From contig JAGTRG010000008.1 in NCBI GenBank assembly GCA_018396435.1, positions 1 through 42,811 of the forward strand: a DNA stretch of 42,811 bases, in the 5' to 3' direction. The notes beneath the pieces are model-generated. The model did not search any database. It saw only the letters and a program-made list of their open reading frames with translations, and had not been told where the DNA came from. The position numbers were made by a program, and so were the translations under genes. Within the stretch, counting starts at the first letter, position 1; each line of letters opens with the position of its first letter. The stretch is from Candidatus Bathyarchaeota archaeon. GTDB lineage: Archaea > Thermoproteota > Bathyarchaeia > Bathyarchaeales > DTEX01. Positions 15,901 to 21,776 of this stretch are shown here, one piece after another.

Positions 15901-15978
15901 AAATTTATTTATAAAGCAGATTCTAATTTTAAAGTCATTAAAAATCCTTTATTGAGGGTACGCTAACAAGGGAGGCAT

Positions 15979-16032
15979 ATGGATAACGGGGATACCTCAG
16001 ATGGTGAAGAAGATGATTTTCCGAAAAATTAA
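15979..16032 (+). CDS. Candidate acidic leader peptide MDNGDTSDGEEDDFPKN upstream of MgtE-like gene
   Basis: ATG at 15979 preceded by aagggaggcat (SD GGGAGG); stop TAA 16030-16032, 7 nt before the first possible start (GTG 16040) of the transporter ORF. Confidence 0.45.
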   Translation: MDNGDTSDGEEDDFPKN

Positions 16033-16039
16033 GTGATGA

Positions 16040-17263
16040 GTGAGAGTAATGGAGACTGATAACGGCGCAATAAACAGAGAAACATCGAACGCGAGGGAAA
16101 AAGCTGGAAGAAGGTTTAAAATTTTTTGGGAATCAATATTCTCGCTCTCCAATACCCCTCTTGGTCTTGTCGCTGGAGTAATATTCGCCATGTTCTACAC
16201 TAACCTTGTAAGGTTCAGAAGCTGGTCCATAGCGATATATCCAACAATTCTAACAACAAAAGGGGTTATAAATGGAATTCTAGCTGGAAGACTCAGCACC
16301 GGGCTCCATGTAGGGCTAATAAATCCAAGTTTAACTAAAAATACAAGGTATTATTACATTATTTTAAATTCGCAATTAGCCCTATCTCTGCTCATAGGTC
16401 TGCTTACAAGTTTCATAGCCTTCCTGATCACTAGCACCCCGTTAGAGGAACTTAACATAATAATTTTTACAAGTTTGGCTGTTCAAGCAATTTCTCTAGG
16501 GTTAATTAATCCTGCAACAGCAATCGTAGCATTCATTGCTTATAAGAGAGGTTTAGACCCGGACATAGTCCTATATCCATTCAGTTCATCAATAGCAGAT
16601 ATACTGTCAACAATATCCTATGTGATTTCGTTAATGATTGCTTTTTGGCTTAATGCTGCAGGCAATATTATAATTCATATAATAGGTTTAATAGCAATTT
16701 TTTTGCTCTGCATTGTCACTTACAGATTTAGGAATGAAAGCGAGTATTGGAAGACTTTAAGGGAATCCTTCTTAGCCGTTGTGATAGCAACGTTAATAGC
16801 AATGATATCGGGGTTTTTCTTACTTCAAATTGAAAAACAACTTGAGGAGGCACAGGAGATACTCATAATTTATCCAGCTCTCATAGATTCACTCGGGGAT
16901 GTGGCAGCTTCCTTCGGCTCGATTACTACAACAAGGCTTCACTTAGGTTTAGTTAAAGCCAAAATAAGTGATATTGGAAAGCAATTTTACGACTTAACTC
17001 AAATATGGTGTTCAGGGCTTATCTATTATTCGATTTACGGGTCAATAGCGTATCTAATTGATAGAAGTGTGAAATCTTTTTTTATAGCAATAATATCCTT
17101 TATCTTAGTTTCTCCAATAATTATTTTATTAGCATACTCAGTAGCGATTCTAACCTTCAAGAACGGTTTAGATCCAGATAATTTTGTCATACCTATAGAA
17201 ACTTCCGTGACAGATGCAATGCTAACCACATGTATAGCAATATTGATCTTCTTATTGCATTAA
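16040..17263 (+). CDS. MgtE/SLC41-like divalent cation (Mg2+) transporter, duplicated membrane domain
   Basis: Two related membrane halves: IYPTILTTKGVINGILAGRLSTGLHVGLINPS and IYPALIDSLGDVAASFGSITTTRLHLGLV. In-frame TGA at 16037-16039 forces the start to GTG 16040 or ATG 16049. Confidence 0.87.
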   Translation: MRVMETDNGAINRETSNAREKAGRRFKIFWESIFSLSNTPLGLVAGVIFAMFYTNLVRFRSWSIAIYPTILTTKGVINGILAGRLSTGLHVGLINPSLTKNTRYYYIILNSQLALSLLIGLLTSFIAFLITSTPLEELNIIIFTSLAVQAISLGLINPATAIVAFIAYKRGLDPDIVLYPFSSSIADILSTISYVISLMIAFWLNAAGNIIIHIIGLIAIFLLCIVTYRFRNESEYWKTLRESFLAVVIATLIAMISGFFLLQIEKQLEEAQEILIIYPALIDSLGDVAASFGSITTTRLHLGLVKAKISDIGKQFYDLTQIWCSGLIYYSIYGSIAYLIDRSVKSFFIAIISFILVSPIIILLAYSVAILTFKNGLDPDNFVIPIETSVTDAMLTTCIAILIFLLH

Positions 17264-17401: not shown

Positions 17402-18652
17402 ATGCGTAAAAAAGAAAAAGTAAAGTATAAGCCCATATCTGTCAGAGAATTGCTTCTAGAAATGAAGAACCTTTCTGAGTTAATGATCGACTTAGCCTAT
17501 TCAGCCGCATTATTTAATGATAGGGATCTCGCAGAGGATGTGATAGAGCTTGAGGATCGCGTGGACATGCTTGCCTATCTCTTAGATATAGAAATAATGA
17601 TAGCTGCAAGAGATGCTGATGAAGCTAAAGCTCTATCAGGCGTTGCAAAGGTTGCTTCAGCAGCTGATAAAATCTCAGATGCAGCTGGCGACATAGCCGC
17701 CATAGTTCTCCAAGACATCGGCGTGCATCCAATTGTAGCAGAAATATTTGAGAGAGTTGAGGAGCACTTAGCAAGAATTAAAGTCTCAGAAAACTCGCCT
17801 ATTGTCGGTAAACAGATAAATGATTTAAATTTAGCTAGTATGGGAATAGATGTTATAGCCATTCGTAGAAATAAGGACTGGATAATAAATCCGGAAAACG
17901 AAGAGCAGATTAAAAGTAATGATATTTTCATTGTGCGTGGCGTTCAAGAAGGCATTAAAGAGTTTAGAGAGAAAGCTGAAGTAGGACCTTTGAGGATAGA
18001 AGAACGTTTGAAAACACGAAAAAATGAGACGGAGCGTTTCAGAGATATAGCCAAGCAGTTCATCGAGCTTAAAGACACATCAGAGCTAATGATCAGCTTG
18101 GCCTACTCCGCGCTTCTGTTAAATAGCAAAGATCTAGCTGAGGAAGTAAACAGCCTCGAAGAGTATGTTGATAAGTTGCATACAAATTTTGAACTGCTTG
18201 TTTTATTAAGCGAATTTAGCGAGGAAGAGACTAAAGGGCTTCTTGGATTAATAAGGTTAGGGGTTGCAGCTGAAAAAATCTCAGATGCAGCCGCCGAAAT
18301 AGCGGAGGTGATCCTTAGGGGAATCGAGCCTCACTTAGTTTTAAAGATGACGATAATGGATGCGGAGGAGACTATAGCGTATGCTAGGGTAAGCGATAAA
18401 TCTCCGCTTGTGAATAAGACTCTGAGGGAGATTCGTCTGCCAGAAGAAACAGGAATGAGAATACTTGCCATCCGAAGAAAAGGCCGATGTATTAGGCCTA
18501 AACTAGATACGAGGATTGAGATTGGCGATATACTGATAGCGTCAGGCTATTCTGAGGGAAAGGATGATTTGATCAAATTAGCATCACCAGACTTACCTAG
18601 CCTAGCTGAGGGTTTATTTGAAGATTTAAGTGAATATGAAGGGGAATTCTAA
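17402..18652 (+). CDS. PhoU-like/TrkA-C (RCK_C) domain protein, duplicated
   Basis: Tandem PhoU-like helical and TrkA-C halves: ...ENSPIVGKQINDLNLASMGIDVIAIRRNKDWIINP... and ...SDKSPLVNKTLREIRLPEETGMRILAIRRKGR.... Confidence 0.85.
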   Translation: MRKKEKVKYKPISVRELLLEMKNLSELMIDLAYSAALFNDRDLAEDVIELEDRVDMLAYLLDIEIMIAARDADEAKALSGVAKVASAADKISDAAGDIAAIVLQDIGVHPIVAEIFERVEEHLARIKVSENSPIVGKQINDLNLASMGIDVIAIRRNKDWIINPENEEQIKSNDIFIVRGVQEGIKEFREKAEVGPLRIEERLKTRKNETERFRDIAKQFIELKDTSELMISLAYSALLLNSKDLAEEVNSLEEYVDKLHTNFELLVLLSEFSEEETKGLLGLIRLGVAAEKISDAAAEIAEVILRGIEPHLVLKMTIMDAEETIAYARVSDKSPLVNKTLREIRLPEETGMRILAIRRKGRCIRPKLDTRIEIGDILIASGYSEGKDDLIKLASPDLPSLAEGLFEDLSEYEGEF

Positions 18653-18755: not shown

Positions 18756-21700
18756 TCATGCGAATACAAGCATTTTGACATTTTTTGCGCCGAATTGTCT
18801 TAGCACATAATCATCAGTCCAATTTGTTGTCTCTCTAAAGGTTTCTGGACCTATGAAAGACGGATCACCGCCTTTGTAATGTAATGGTCCCAGAGCGTTC
18901 CTCAAAGTTCCAACCAACACTACTTTTATTTTGTTATATCCCCGCTTTAAGGCATCTGTTATCTCAATCTCATAAGGCGGCAATATGACTTTCCCAGCCT
19001 CTTTTTCATTGACATAAATTATGGCTAATGCCGCGTTAAATTCCTCAAAACTCAAGAAAACTCTAGCGTTTTCTGGAATTTTAGAACCCACATCTTTCTC
19101 AAGCTCAAATTCGCCTGCGTAAAATGGGTATCCCGCTTCGCATAGATCTCTAATTTCCGCCTCCTTTACTTCCTCTACCAGCCTTGAACCTCCCCTGGCT
19201 CCAATCTTAACCGCGAAGTCGCCCAAGAGGTAAATGTTTTCTAATTCCGGCTCTAAATCAACAATGCCCTCTATCTCTATGGTATTTAATCCTTTACCCA
19301 TAAGATTGGAAACATCTATCTTTGGGAAGTTCCAGTCTAGCCAGAAATCGTCCATTTCAGGATTAATGCTAACGCCATTAACATGTATCTTGAAACGCTC
19401 TGGTTTTTCTATCACTAGATATGCTTTTCTATTTTTGAATTCCACGTCAGATTCAAATTCGAATCTAAGCCTGAACTCGGTGCCCAGTCCCTTTCGAACT
19501 ATAGTCTCATGGGCTTTCCATACTGGCACAAGATCGCTCCATGCTCCCTTACTCCTGTACCTGCAATAGTCTAGGACCAGAATGTTTGGGTTAAGTCTCT
19601 TAATTCTCCATGGACCGTTGAGGGCTACTTCGCAGATCTTATTTCCTTTTTTATCAAATACTTGTGAATGCTCAATTTTGAAAGTTTCAGATAAATTTGG
19701 TCTTAAAACGAACATTTTAGATCCTATAGGTTCCAACCTTATGCTCCAGAAGGTTTTTCCATTTTTAATTTCGAATTTTTCAAAATTCTGTTCTCCGCTC
19801 ATTGGATCCCATATCTCAACACCAAATTCCCCATTTGCGGATAATCTTAAATCATGAGATCTTTCCCTGCTAGTGTTGACTATAAATAGGATGCGCCCAT
19901 CTTCATCTTCCCTCAAATGGTAGAGCACATCGCCATCTTCATCGCCTTCTATCGTTATTGATTTAGGAATATCTTCAAGTGCGGCGGCTAATGACTCCTT
20001 TCCGATAATTTTAAGGAGTTTAGCTTTGCTCAATAGATCCTTGATCTCTTCATTGGGTTCACCATCTACTAGATATGGCGTTGGATCTATAGCTATTAGT
20101 TTGCCACCTAAGGATGCAAATTCCTTCAAAATTTTTACAGTTTTGCTCGACAAAGTCACACTTGGAGGTATAATAATGGCATTATATAGAATATTGCCTA
20201 TACGTAATTTTTCACCATCGATTTTGCCGTATTTCTCCATTAGCATCTCATCCCCTAGGTCAAAATCTATATGGGCGGAAAGCAGCGATCGCAACAAACT
20301 CGAAAGATATTCATCTATTTCTGCAACCTTAGACATGTTTAATGGTGAATATAGAGCCCACGCGGTGCCTATGGGGTGAATAACAAGCACGTTAACTATT
20401 CGTTTACCCCTAGATAGCATGTAGCTCAGCCTTGCGAAGTATTCCTCCAGAATCCCGTTATATTTCCACCAGGGTTGGCTCCAATGGAAGTTTAGGCCAT
20501 AATCCCTCTTTCTTCTGCCACACATAGAGTACGGAACCAGATGATGATTTAGGAAGTTAACACCCATCACGTAAAGCCAATCGCCGATCCATTTTCTGTC
20601 GGCAAACGATGGATAGTTGCCAGTGCATCCATAGGTTTCACATAGAACTCTTTCTTTCCCAAGCTGATTGACAACGCTTGATACTTGCTTAGCCGTAAGC
20701 AGGCTGCCCCAAACATGCATGCCGAGATGATCTATTCCCGGAATATGTTGATACTCATAGTGGGGCATAACTGCTCCAGCGCATACTAATTGGCTTAGAA
20801 GGCTGTCTTCAGCTAAGTAATGTCCAGTGAATTTTAATCCACGCTTATCACACCATTCATATATCTGCTTAGAAAATGCCTCTAAAAACAGCATGGTTAT
20901 AGTTTTCCAGAAATCATAGCGCGTTTTAATATAATTCCCAACGTCAAAGAAAATCTCCGGAAGCCTCTCCATGATACTGTAACCATTTAATTCTTTGAAA
21001 CGCTCCACTAATCTATCAGTCCAGGGCACCGCGAAGGGCGCCATCCTTGGACCCCTGGGCGGAATAATTGATGAAGCCCTAGGTCTACTACTGGAAATGT
21101 TAGGTTCATCAGTAAATACCCCCGGTATCGTTTTGCCAATATTATTACTAAAGCGGTCTACATATGGTGCGTAAGCCACTTCTAAGAATTTTTTAACTAC
21201 ATTTTGATCTAGCAGATCAACATAGCTTAAGCCATAAAACCAGGTCTCTCCGGGAGGAGCTACAAAGACAATGAAGGATAGATATAGATAATCTTCCCCC
21301 TTCTCTTCAGGGTTAGCAGCTTCATAGTTTACCGGAAGCCGCCTATTATTTAACTTGCACTTAAAATTAGCTATGACTTCCTCACCGCCATAAGCTCTTT
21401 CGCCAGGCACCATAACTAAAGCTTTAGCCCTATATCTTGCACTGAGAGCTGGGACTATCCCCCCAGCGAAACCTGAAGGCCAGCAAAGTTCATCGTATAT
21501 CCATACATGCATGTCGAGTTTTTCCGCCTCATTCACAGCGGCCTCAAACGCCTTAAACCATTCCTCGCCAAGAAATGATGTAGCTAAGCCTTCTCTGGCA
21601 TGGAAGAAAGCTCCGCCATACCCGCCCTCATTCAGCAAGTCAATTTGCAGAGCAACCTCCTCTGGATTCAGCCTGTCATTTATCGACCAGAAGGGCGCGC

Positions 21701-21776
21701 CCTTAAACTCTGAAGGGGGACTCTTAAAAAGATCCTTTTTAATCAAACATTTACCCCAGAAAGCATGTAAAACCAA
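18756..21776 (-). CDS. Large glycoside hydrolase, GH106 (alpha-L-rhamnosidase)-like
   Basis: 1006 aa; N-terminal APFWSINDRLNPEEVALQIDLLNEGGYGGAFFHAREGL...WIYDELCWPSGFAGG; TDEPN; C-terminal beta-sandwich-like region; no obvious signal peptide. Confidence 0.75.
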   Translation of the reverse strand: MVLHAFWGKCLIKKDLFKSPPSEFKGAPFWSINDRLNPEEVALQIDLLNEGGYGGAFFHAREGLATSFLGEEWFKAFEAAVNEAEKLDMHVWIYDELCWPSGFAGGIVPALSARYRAKALVMVPGERAYGGEEVIANFKCKLNNRRLPVNYEAANPEEKGEDYLYLSFIVFVAPPGETWFYGLSYVDLLDQNVVKKFLEVAYAPYVDRFSNNIGKTIPGVFTDEPNISSSRPRASSIIPPRGPRMAPFAVPWTDRLVERFKELNGYSIMERLPEIFFDVGNYIKTRYDFWKTITMLFLEAFSKQIYEWCDKRGLKFTGHYLAEDSLLSQLVCAGAVMPHYEYQHIPGIDHLGMHVWGSLLTAKQVSSVVNQLGKERVLCETYGCTGNYPSFADRKWIGDWLYVMGVNFLNHHLVPYSMCGRRKRDYGLNFHWSQPWWKYNGILEEYFARLSYMLSRGKRIVNVLVIHPIGTAWALYSPLNMSKVAEIDEYLSSLLRSLLSAHIDFDLGDEMLMEKYGKIDGEKLRIGNILYNAIIIPPSVTLSSKTVKILKEFASLGGKLIAIDPTPYLVDGEPNEEIKDLLSKAKLLKIIGKESLAAALEDIPKSITIEGDEDGDVLYHLREDEDGRILFIVNTSRERSHDLRLSANGEFGVEIWDPMSGEQNFEKFEIKNGKTFWSIRLEPIGSKMFVLRPNLSETFKIEHSQVFDKKGNKICEVALNGPWRIKRLNPNILVLDYCRYRSKGAWSDLVPVWKAHETIVRKGLGTEFRLRFEFESDVEFKNRKAYLVIEKPERFKIHVNGVSINPEMDDFWLDWNFPKIDVSNLMGKGLNTIEIEGIVDLEPELENIYLLGDFAVKIGARGGSRLVEEVKEAEIRDLCEAGYPFYAGEFELEKDVGSKIPENARVFLSFEEFNAALAIIYVNEKEAGKVILPPYEIEITDALKRGYNKIKVVLVGTLRNALGPLHYKGGDPSFIGPETFRETTNWTDDYVLRQFGAKNVKMLVFA

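Follow-up and report, generated by a model that had tools for sequence, protein, structure and literature searches.

Within the window, the whole 42,811-nt stretch of Candidatus Bathyarchaeota DNA analysed here, the forward strand carries mgtE (16040–17263), which encodes a tandem-domain SLC41/MgtE Mg2+ transporter and starts at GTG 16040 or ATG 16049. A first-pass annotation made from the letters alone had proposed an MgtE-like transporter with these two starts, and the match to PF01769 bears this out (two domains, E=1.9e-27, 96.5 bits against a curated cut-off of 27.6). It was also right in assigning the gene a weaker Shine-Dalgarno (SD)-like tract: GTGAT (16033–16037, forward strand) is a weak extended SD when judged by the anti-SD of the genome, and it fits GTG 16040 better than ATG 16049. 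mgtE is the one PF01769 gene found in the window genome and no CorA was found in this genome or in 18 other members of the family searched, so that control of mgtE would matter.

Across the order, CorA was matched in only 24 of 81 genomes; none of these is among the 19 genomes listed for the family of the window, and because of this absence MgtE may be the main Mg2+ importer in that family. Adjoining mgtE, outside the leader, is a gene for a PhoU-TrkA_C protein (17402–18652, forward strand), whose two halves form separate adjacent ORFs in many relatives, a stop codon often marking the point where they meet; this pair is followed by a 1006-aa ORF on the reverse strand (18756–21776). The window MgtE groups with proteins of f4-family Bathyarchaeia and of a Helarchaeota MAG (45–53% identity) and not with those of its own genus (37–40%), which suggests that mgtE was horizontally transferred together with its leader ORF.

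This leader ORF, ORF A (15979–16032, forward strand), runs from ATG 15979 to TAA 16030–16032 and encodes MDNGDTSDGEEDDFPKN, 17 codons with seven Asp/Glu and one Lys. Its SD, GGGAGG (15970–15975, forward strand), is identical in the sister species G010; start, stop, peptide and SD are all as first annotated. The 16S rRNA of the window genome ends in GGATCACCTCCT at its 3' side and the anti-SD is GGATCACCTCC, which makes the GGAGG of ORF A a good SD; the 3-nt spacing to the ATG is short. The acidic segment DNGDTSDGEEDD (15982–16017, forward strand) is the portion of ORF A common to the sister and to more remote relatives. A TATA-box-like element, TTTTAAA (15927–15933, forward strand), lies 52 nt upstream of ORF A, and similar boxes precede the start of ORF A by ~42–52 nt in the f8 clade (GGAAACTTATTTAAG; distance counted from the GTG start of the long form described below) and in Brockarchaeota (GGAAAAGTATTTAAACAG), with none in the scan for some other families. 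Given this spacing where a box is found, the mRNA probably has ORF A as its first ORF. The position of the promoter makes it unlikely that transcription starts downstream of 15979, a start that would have contradicted the first-pass annotation by its own account.

The C-terminal end of ORF A has a history of its own. The sister species G010, whose MgtE is 89% identical to that of the window, shares promoter, SD, ATG and MDNGDxSDGEED, and then continues with ESDQQSVSGKRKSSRRFIA. In the alignment of the two, the junction of a 100-nt deletion in the window copy falls at 16016–16017, and the FPKN-stop of the window equals the FPEN-stop of another frame in G010. This deletion, read from the assembled sequence of a MAG (G000), produced both the 'FPKN' end and the placement of the stop 7 nt before mgtE, two features peculiar to the window genome. 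By this comparison, the deletion joins the acidic N-terminus of ORF A to the tail of a second, overlapping frame, ORF B. Since G010 keeps the N-terminus and the FPKN-stop comes from the other frame, the acidic N-terminus of ORF A is, on the same alignment, ancestral and the C-terminal end a local accident. The remnant of ORF B in the window (MIFRKIK-stop, 16013–16036, forward strand) starts inside the acidic codons (GAAG-ATG-AT; alternative start ATG 16001) and ends 3 nt before GTG 16040; in G010, ORF B comprises 39–43 codons and ends 7 nt before the mgtE GTG. Both short frames of the window now end 3–7 nt before GTG 16040, and the window copy may have drifted towards simple reinitiation. A programmed frameshift from ORF A into MgtE was also considered for the window and is impossible, as the mgtE frame, closed by TGA 16034–16036, opens only after the stop of ORF A.

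Recurrence and coding-type evolution of the acidic frame

For the comparison, mgtE loci were gathered from the order, the class and the phylum, and they represent the loci most like the query rather than a random sample. In a seed-free count, an SD-preceded acidic ORF was found just upstream of mgtE in 69 of 150 distinct loci, comprising Bathyarchaeia and Brockarchaeota, when an ATG or GTG ORF preceded by an SD and with at least four D/E in 10 residues near the N-terminus was required. Shuffled sequences lead to an expectation of 2.0 (first-order Markov) or 3.4 (second-order Markov) such loci, and the same criterion gave 0/30 upstream of each of three other genes, PhoU-TrkA_C, PmbA and CorA. 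None was present at 20 more distant MgtE loci of the phylum. Of 113 loci, a profile made from 16 seeds matched 41 on the forward and 2 on the reverse strand. As the sense strand is rich in purines, reverse-strand counts make a poor control, and shuffles and other genes were used instead.

Reading the upstream regions in all frames revealed a similar ORF in many families, for example MEGGNDESSQQ (f4), MDGSDADDDDQHSGN (f6), MKGSDDDDQRLQRS (f1) and MGEKEETEGATDETHQHS (Brockarchaeota), together with a long form in f8, V-E-[FL]-E-G-x-L-x-K-A-L-L-K-x-C-L-W-M...EGGQDEASQQ. In an MgtE tree (FastTree, long branches flagged), the trait appears in both major clades of the order and in Brockarchaeota, with at least 21 changes. 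ORF A is missing in the f8 genera g21 and g17 as well as in several cases from the window's own genus and, since some families are without it, it is dispensable. No Pfam or NCBIfam model matches it. Thus, the persistence of an acidic uORF upstream of orthologues, on which the first-pass annotation had made its proposal depend, holds for a sequence-diverged ORF across Bathyarchaeia and in Brockarchaeota. Because versions of it recur before mgtE in dozens of related archaea, the short acidic frame is probably a real translation-control element.

Besides its recurrence, the frame evolves as a coding sequence. From the GTG start, which is invariant in the 26 loci of f8, the best-sampled clade, to the acidic motif, frame 0 is uninterrupted in 26/26, while stops occur in 24/26 loci in frame 1 and in 26/26 in frame 2. 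Since these loci were picked partly by their open frame 0, the indels are the fairer coding test: all 6/6 indel types inside f8 ORF A are multiples of 3, compared with 1, 2, 3 and 4 nt upstream of the GTG. Across 22 pairs of relatives, a few of which have a member in common, pN/pS of the portion of ORF A ahead of ORF B came to 0.50 (0.38–0.62) when read in frame 0; the two other frames gave 0.68 and 0.72, and the sequence upstream 0.91. The tail of ORF A past the acidic motif and the ORF B start is without constraint by pN/pS, and neither tail nor stop position is conserved. Measured from stop to stop, pN/pS was diluted by the non-coding parts of the frames, and no signal came from the f6 clade. 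Ser in the shared motif is encoded by both AGY and TCN, and in L003, L004 and L101 the changes in the motif are synonymous in ORF A, yet alter MgtE residues. Coding-type evolution in orthologues, as anticipated in the first-pass annotation, is seen in the lower frame-0 pN/pS before ORF B and in the 3n indels, and judged from these patterns ORF A is very probably translated and selected.

The overlapping frame and its probable coupling to mgtE

With ORF B positions assigned by hand, the acidic motif of ORF A falls on the SD and ATG of ORF B in 55 of 55 loci examined. In 32 of these, ORF B forms the N-terminus of MgtE itself, and in 23 it is a separate frame. Twenty-one of the separate frames belong to f8, span 50–64 codons and end no more than 10 nt from a possible mgtE start, often as ATGA; the remaining two are those of the window and G010, which end 3 and 7 nt before the GTG, respectively. 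The resulting offsets of −8 to +10 nt over the 23 loci are those of a translationally coupled pair. The separate ORF B is under no amino-acid constraint, its chance of staying open for so long is ~0.1 per locus, and it looks like a translational coupler. Coupling by termination-reinitiation is proven and common in archaea, and the stop of ORF B overlaps or abuts the mgtE start (ATGA) in the manner of Haloferax gene pairs (PMC6728339), with the difference that the upstream gene is here a coupler free of sequence constraint, which itself starts inside the acidic leader ORF.

A further short frame, ORF C (11–15 aa in L026, L031 and L043), lies downstream of a conserved SD (AAGGAG/GGGGTG), before the start of ORF B, and ends at ATGA. 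This third f8 frame with a basic, MDGRKRGKPGRWTR-like peptide, read by hand from a codon print-out, is not the conserved one, as it has 3 codons in L064 and L077 and no start in L092.

Proposed control of mgtE translation and competing explanations

The best explanation for this arrangement, to which we assign a probability of about 0.5, is a translated leader ORF: ORF A, situated at the 5' end of the mgtE mRNA, would control the translation of mgtE in cis. The anatomy lends good support to regulation in cis, and we regard an action of ORF A on mgtE translation as likely. That Mg2+ is the signal, sensed through destabilisation of the ribosome by the acidic chain, is plausible, and we would give it somewhat less than even odds. 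After initiation at ORF A, close to the 5' end, ribosomes would sweep over the start of ORF B or mgtE and hold this start down. The short acidic nascent chain would render the 70S ribosome unstable, most of all at low Mg2+, and drop-off would fall exactly where mgtE, or the coupler ORF B, must initiate. As the acidic codons lie on that start, drop-off would clear or feed it, and more transporter would be made when Mg2+ is scarce. The overlap of ORF A with a second frame points to control at the level of translation rather than to the Rho-dependent route of MgtL.

Acidic N-terminal nascent chains are known to abort translation in a Mg2+-dependent manner in bacteria and eukaryotes (PMC11282234, PMC9718836), and this destabilisation governs enteric mgtA via MgtL (PMC11282234) and mgtB via mgtQ (PMC8092293). 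Several points count against the explanation preferred here: the acidity of the f8 peptides is only moderate (EGGQDEASQQ), charge does not account for their conserved SQQ, no selection on ORF A is seen beyond the ORF B start, and some families do without it. To our knowledge, the bacterial protein L31, a modulator of drop-off, is absent from archaea. In addition, the stop located 7 nt before mgtE in the window would suit reinitiation, so that completing rather than aborting ORF A would help mgtE, which counts against drop-off.

ORF A could also be a leader without any sensing function, which takes up ribosomes close to the 5' end and hands them to ORF B or mgtE by overlap or termination-reinitiation, its acidity being tolerated or derived from purine-rich ribosome binding sites. 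This picture fits the 23 loci in which a stop overlaps the mgtE start or precedes it by 3–10 nt, as well as the frequency of coupling in archaea (PMC6728339) and the lack of conservation of the ORF A tail and stop position. In most fused loci, however, ORF A cannot feed mgtE by termination since its stop lies downstream of the mgtE start. Moreover, the acidic content is far above that upstream of the three other genes, and it is the acidic motif that is kept across families, even with different codons for the same residues; we consider a non-sensing leader unlikely, while giving it real weight. That ORF A encodes a small protein with a function of its own, such as an acidic regulatory partner of MgtE, seems improbable to us. 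The appeal of this idea lies in the long forms, with their conserved and selected N-terminal stretch before the acidic motif, and in MgtR and MgtU, regulatory small proteins encoded with Mg2+ transporters (PMC8092293). Nevertheless, many families possess the short acidic N-terminus only, with unrelated C-terminal tails and lengths, the protein family databases hold no match, and ORF A is always found immediately upstream of, and overlapping, the mgtE start.

Two further explanations would deprive the peptide of any role. If the acidic motif were a by-product, that is the SD and start codon of mgtE or ORF B (GGAAGGTGG...GATGA) seen in the wrong frame, its coincidence with these signals at every locus and a pN/pS of the overlapping tail that is not lower in frame 0 would follow. 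Two lines of evidence disfavour such an origin and make it, in our view, very improbable. No such ORF accompanies the SD and ATG of the other genes used as controls, and the evolution is specific to the frame, ORF A having an SD of its own, an invariant start, 3n indels and frame-specific selection before ORF B. Acidic residues also occur upstream of the ORF B signals (D2, D5 and D8 in the window; E3, E5 and E6 in Brockarchaeota), and the motif changes of L003, L004 and L101 described above spare the peptide at the expense of MgtE. Likewise disfavoured, and hardly probable, is a structured RNA element or riboswitch in the conserved 5' block with an incidental ORF, because the block evolves by codon-type indels and substitutions and is without meaningful Rfam matches. 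No Rfam model, whether of a Mg2+ riboswitch or of another known leader RNA, matched in 18 relatives at E≤1, and a further Rfam search returned only two chance-level matches, both inside mgtE and none in the leader. The nucleotide conservation of the f8 leader is high, and in L003, L004 and L101 ORF A lies together with the mgtE start between the arms of an inverted repeat of 13–14 bp (CTCCTCTCCGGAG / CTCCGGAGAGGAG), as an RNA element would lead one to expect. This strong repeat is, however, confined to the f4-type clade and there is no consistent fold of the leader, with folding z-scores of −2.4 (L003), −3.1 (L004), +1.7 (window), +1.5 (L026) and −0.6 (L037).

Relation to bacterial leader peptides

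The first-pass annotation had likened ORF A to MgtL, and the part of this comparison that stands is the conserved acidic leader ORF of mgtE. ORF A shares with MgtL of enterobacterial mgtA its small size, its place in the 5' leader of a gene for a Mg2+ transporter and the acidic residues that enter the nascent chain very early, within its first ~30 residues. The resemblance in proline and in peptide length turned out to be coincidental, the FP of the window marking the deletion junction; Pro is missing from the acidic run in most orthologues, and nothing like the EPDP motif of MgtL is present in ORF A. The two systems also belong to different domains of life and differ in their transporters, the P-type ATPase MgtA in one case and MgtE/SLC41 in the other. 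While MgtL acts on a Rho-dependent terminator (PMC11282234), the acidic codons of ORF A overlap the start of the coupler or transporter. With a different transporter family, no RNA family match and a peptide that is unrelated by inspection, descent from the enterobacterial mgtL/mgtA leader finds no support. In mgtQ, an 8-aa ORF upstream of Salmonella mgtB, acidic codons (Asp2, Glu5) likewise affect the initiation of Mg2+ transporter translation (PMC8092293). Unlike ORF A, mgtQ is intergenic in a long operon and works through alternative stem-loops, mgtB encodes a P-type ATPase, and there is no conservation between mgtQ and the ORF A family.

In the papers searched, we found no precedent for peptide-mediated attenuation of a metal transporter in archaea. 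We tentatively propose that ORF A may represent the first archaeal case of Mg2+ control by an acidic leader peptide, independent of MgtL, conserved in Bathyarchaeia and Brockarchaeota and with its drop-off site on the start of the transporter or coupler, while being aware that this full description could well prove wrong. The conserved family of small ORFs to which ORF A belongs is represented in neither Pfam nor NCBIfam. If confirmed, destabilisation of the ribosome by an acidic chain would serve as a Mg2+ gauge in an archaeal lineage with a transporter family of its own, and this would imply the convergent use of one physical property of the ribosome across domains of life.
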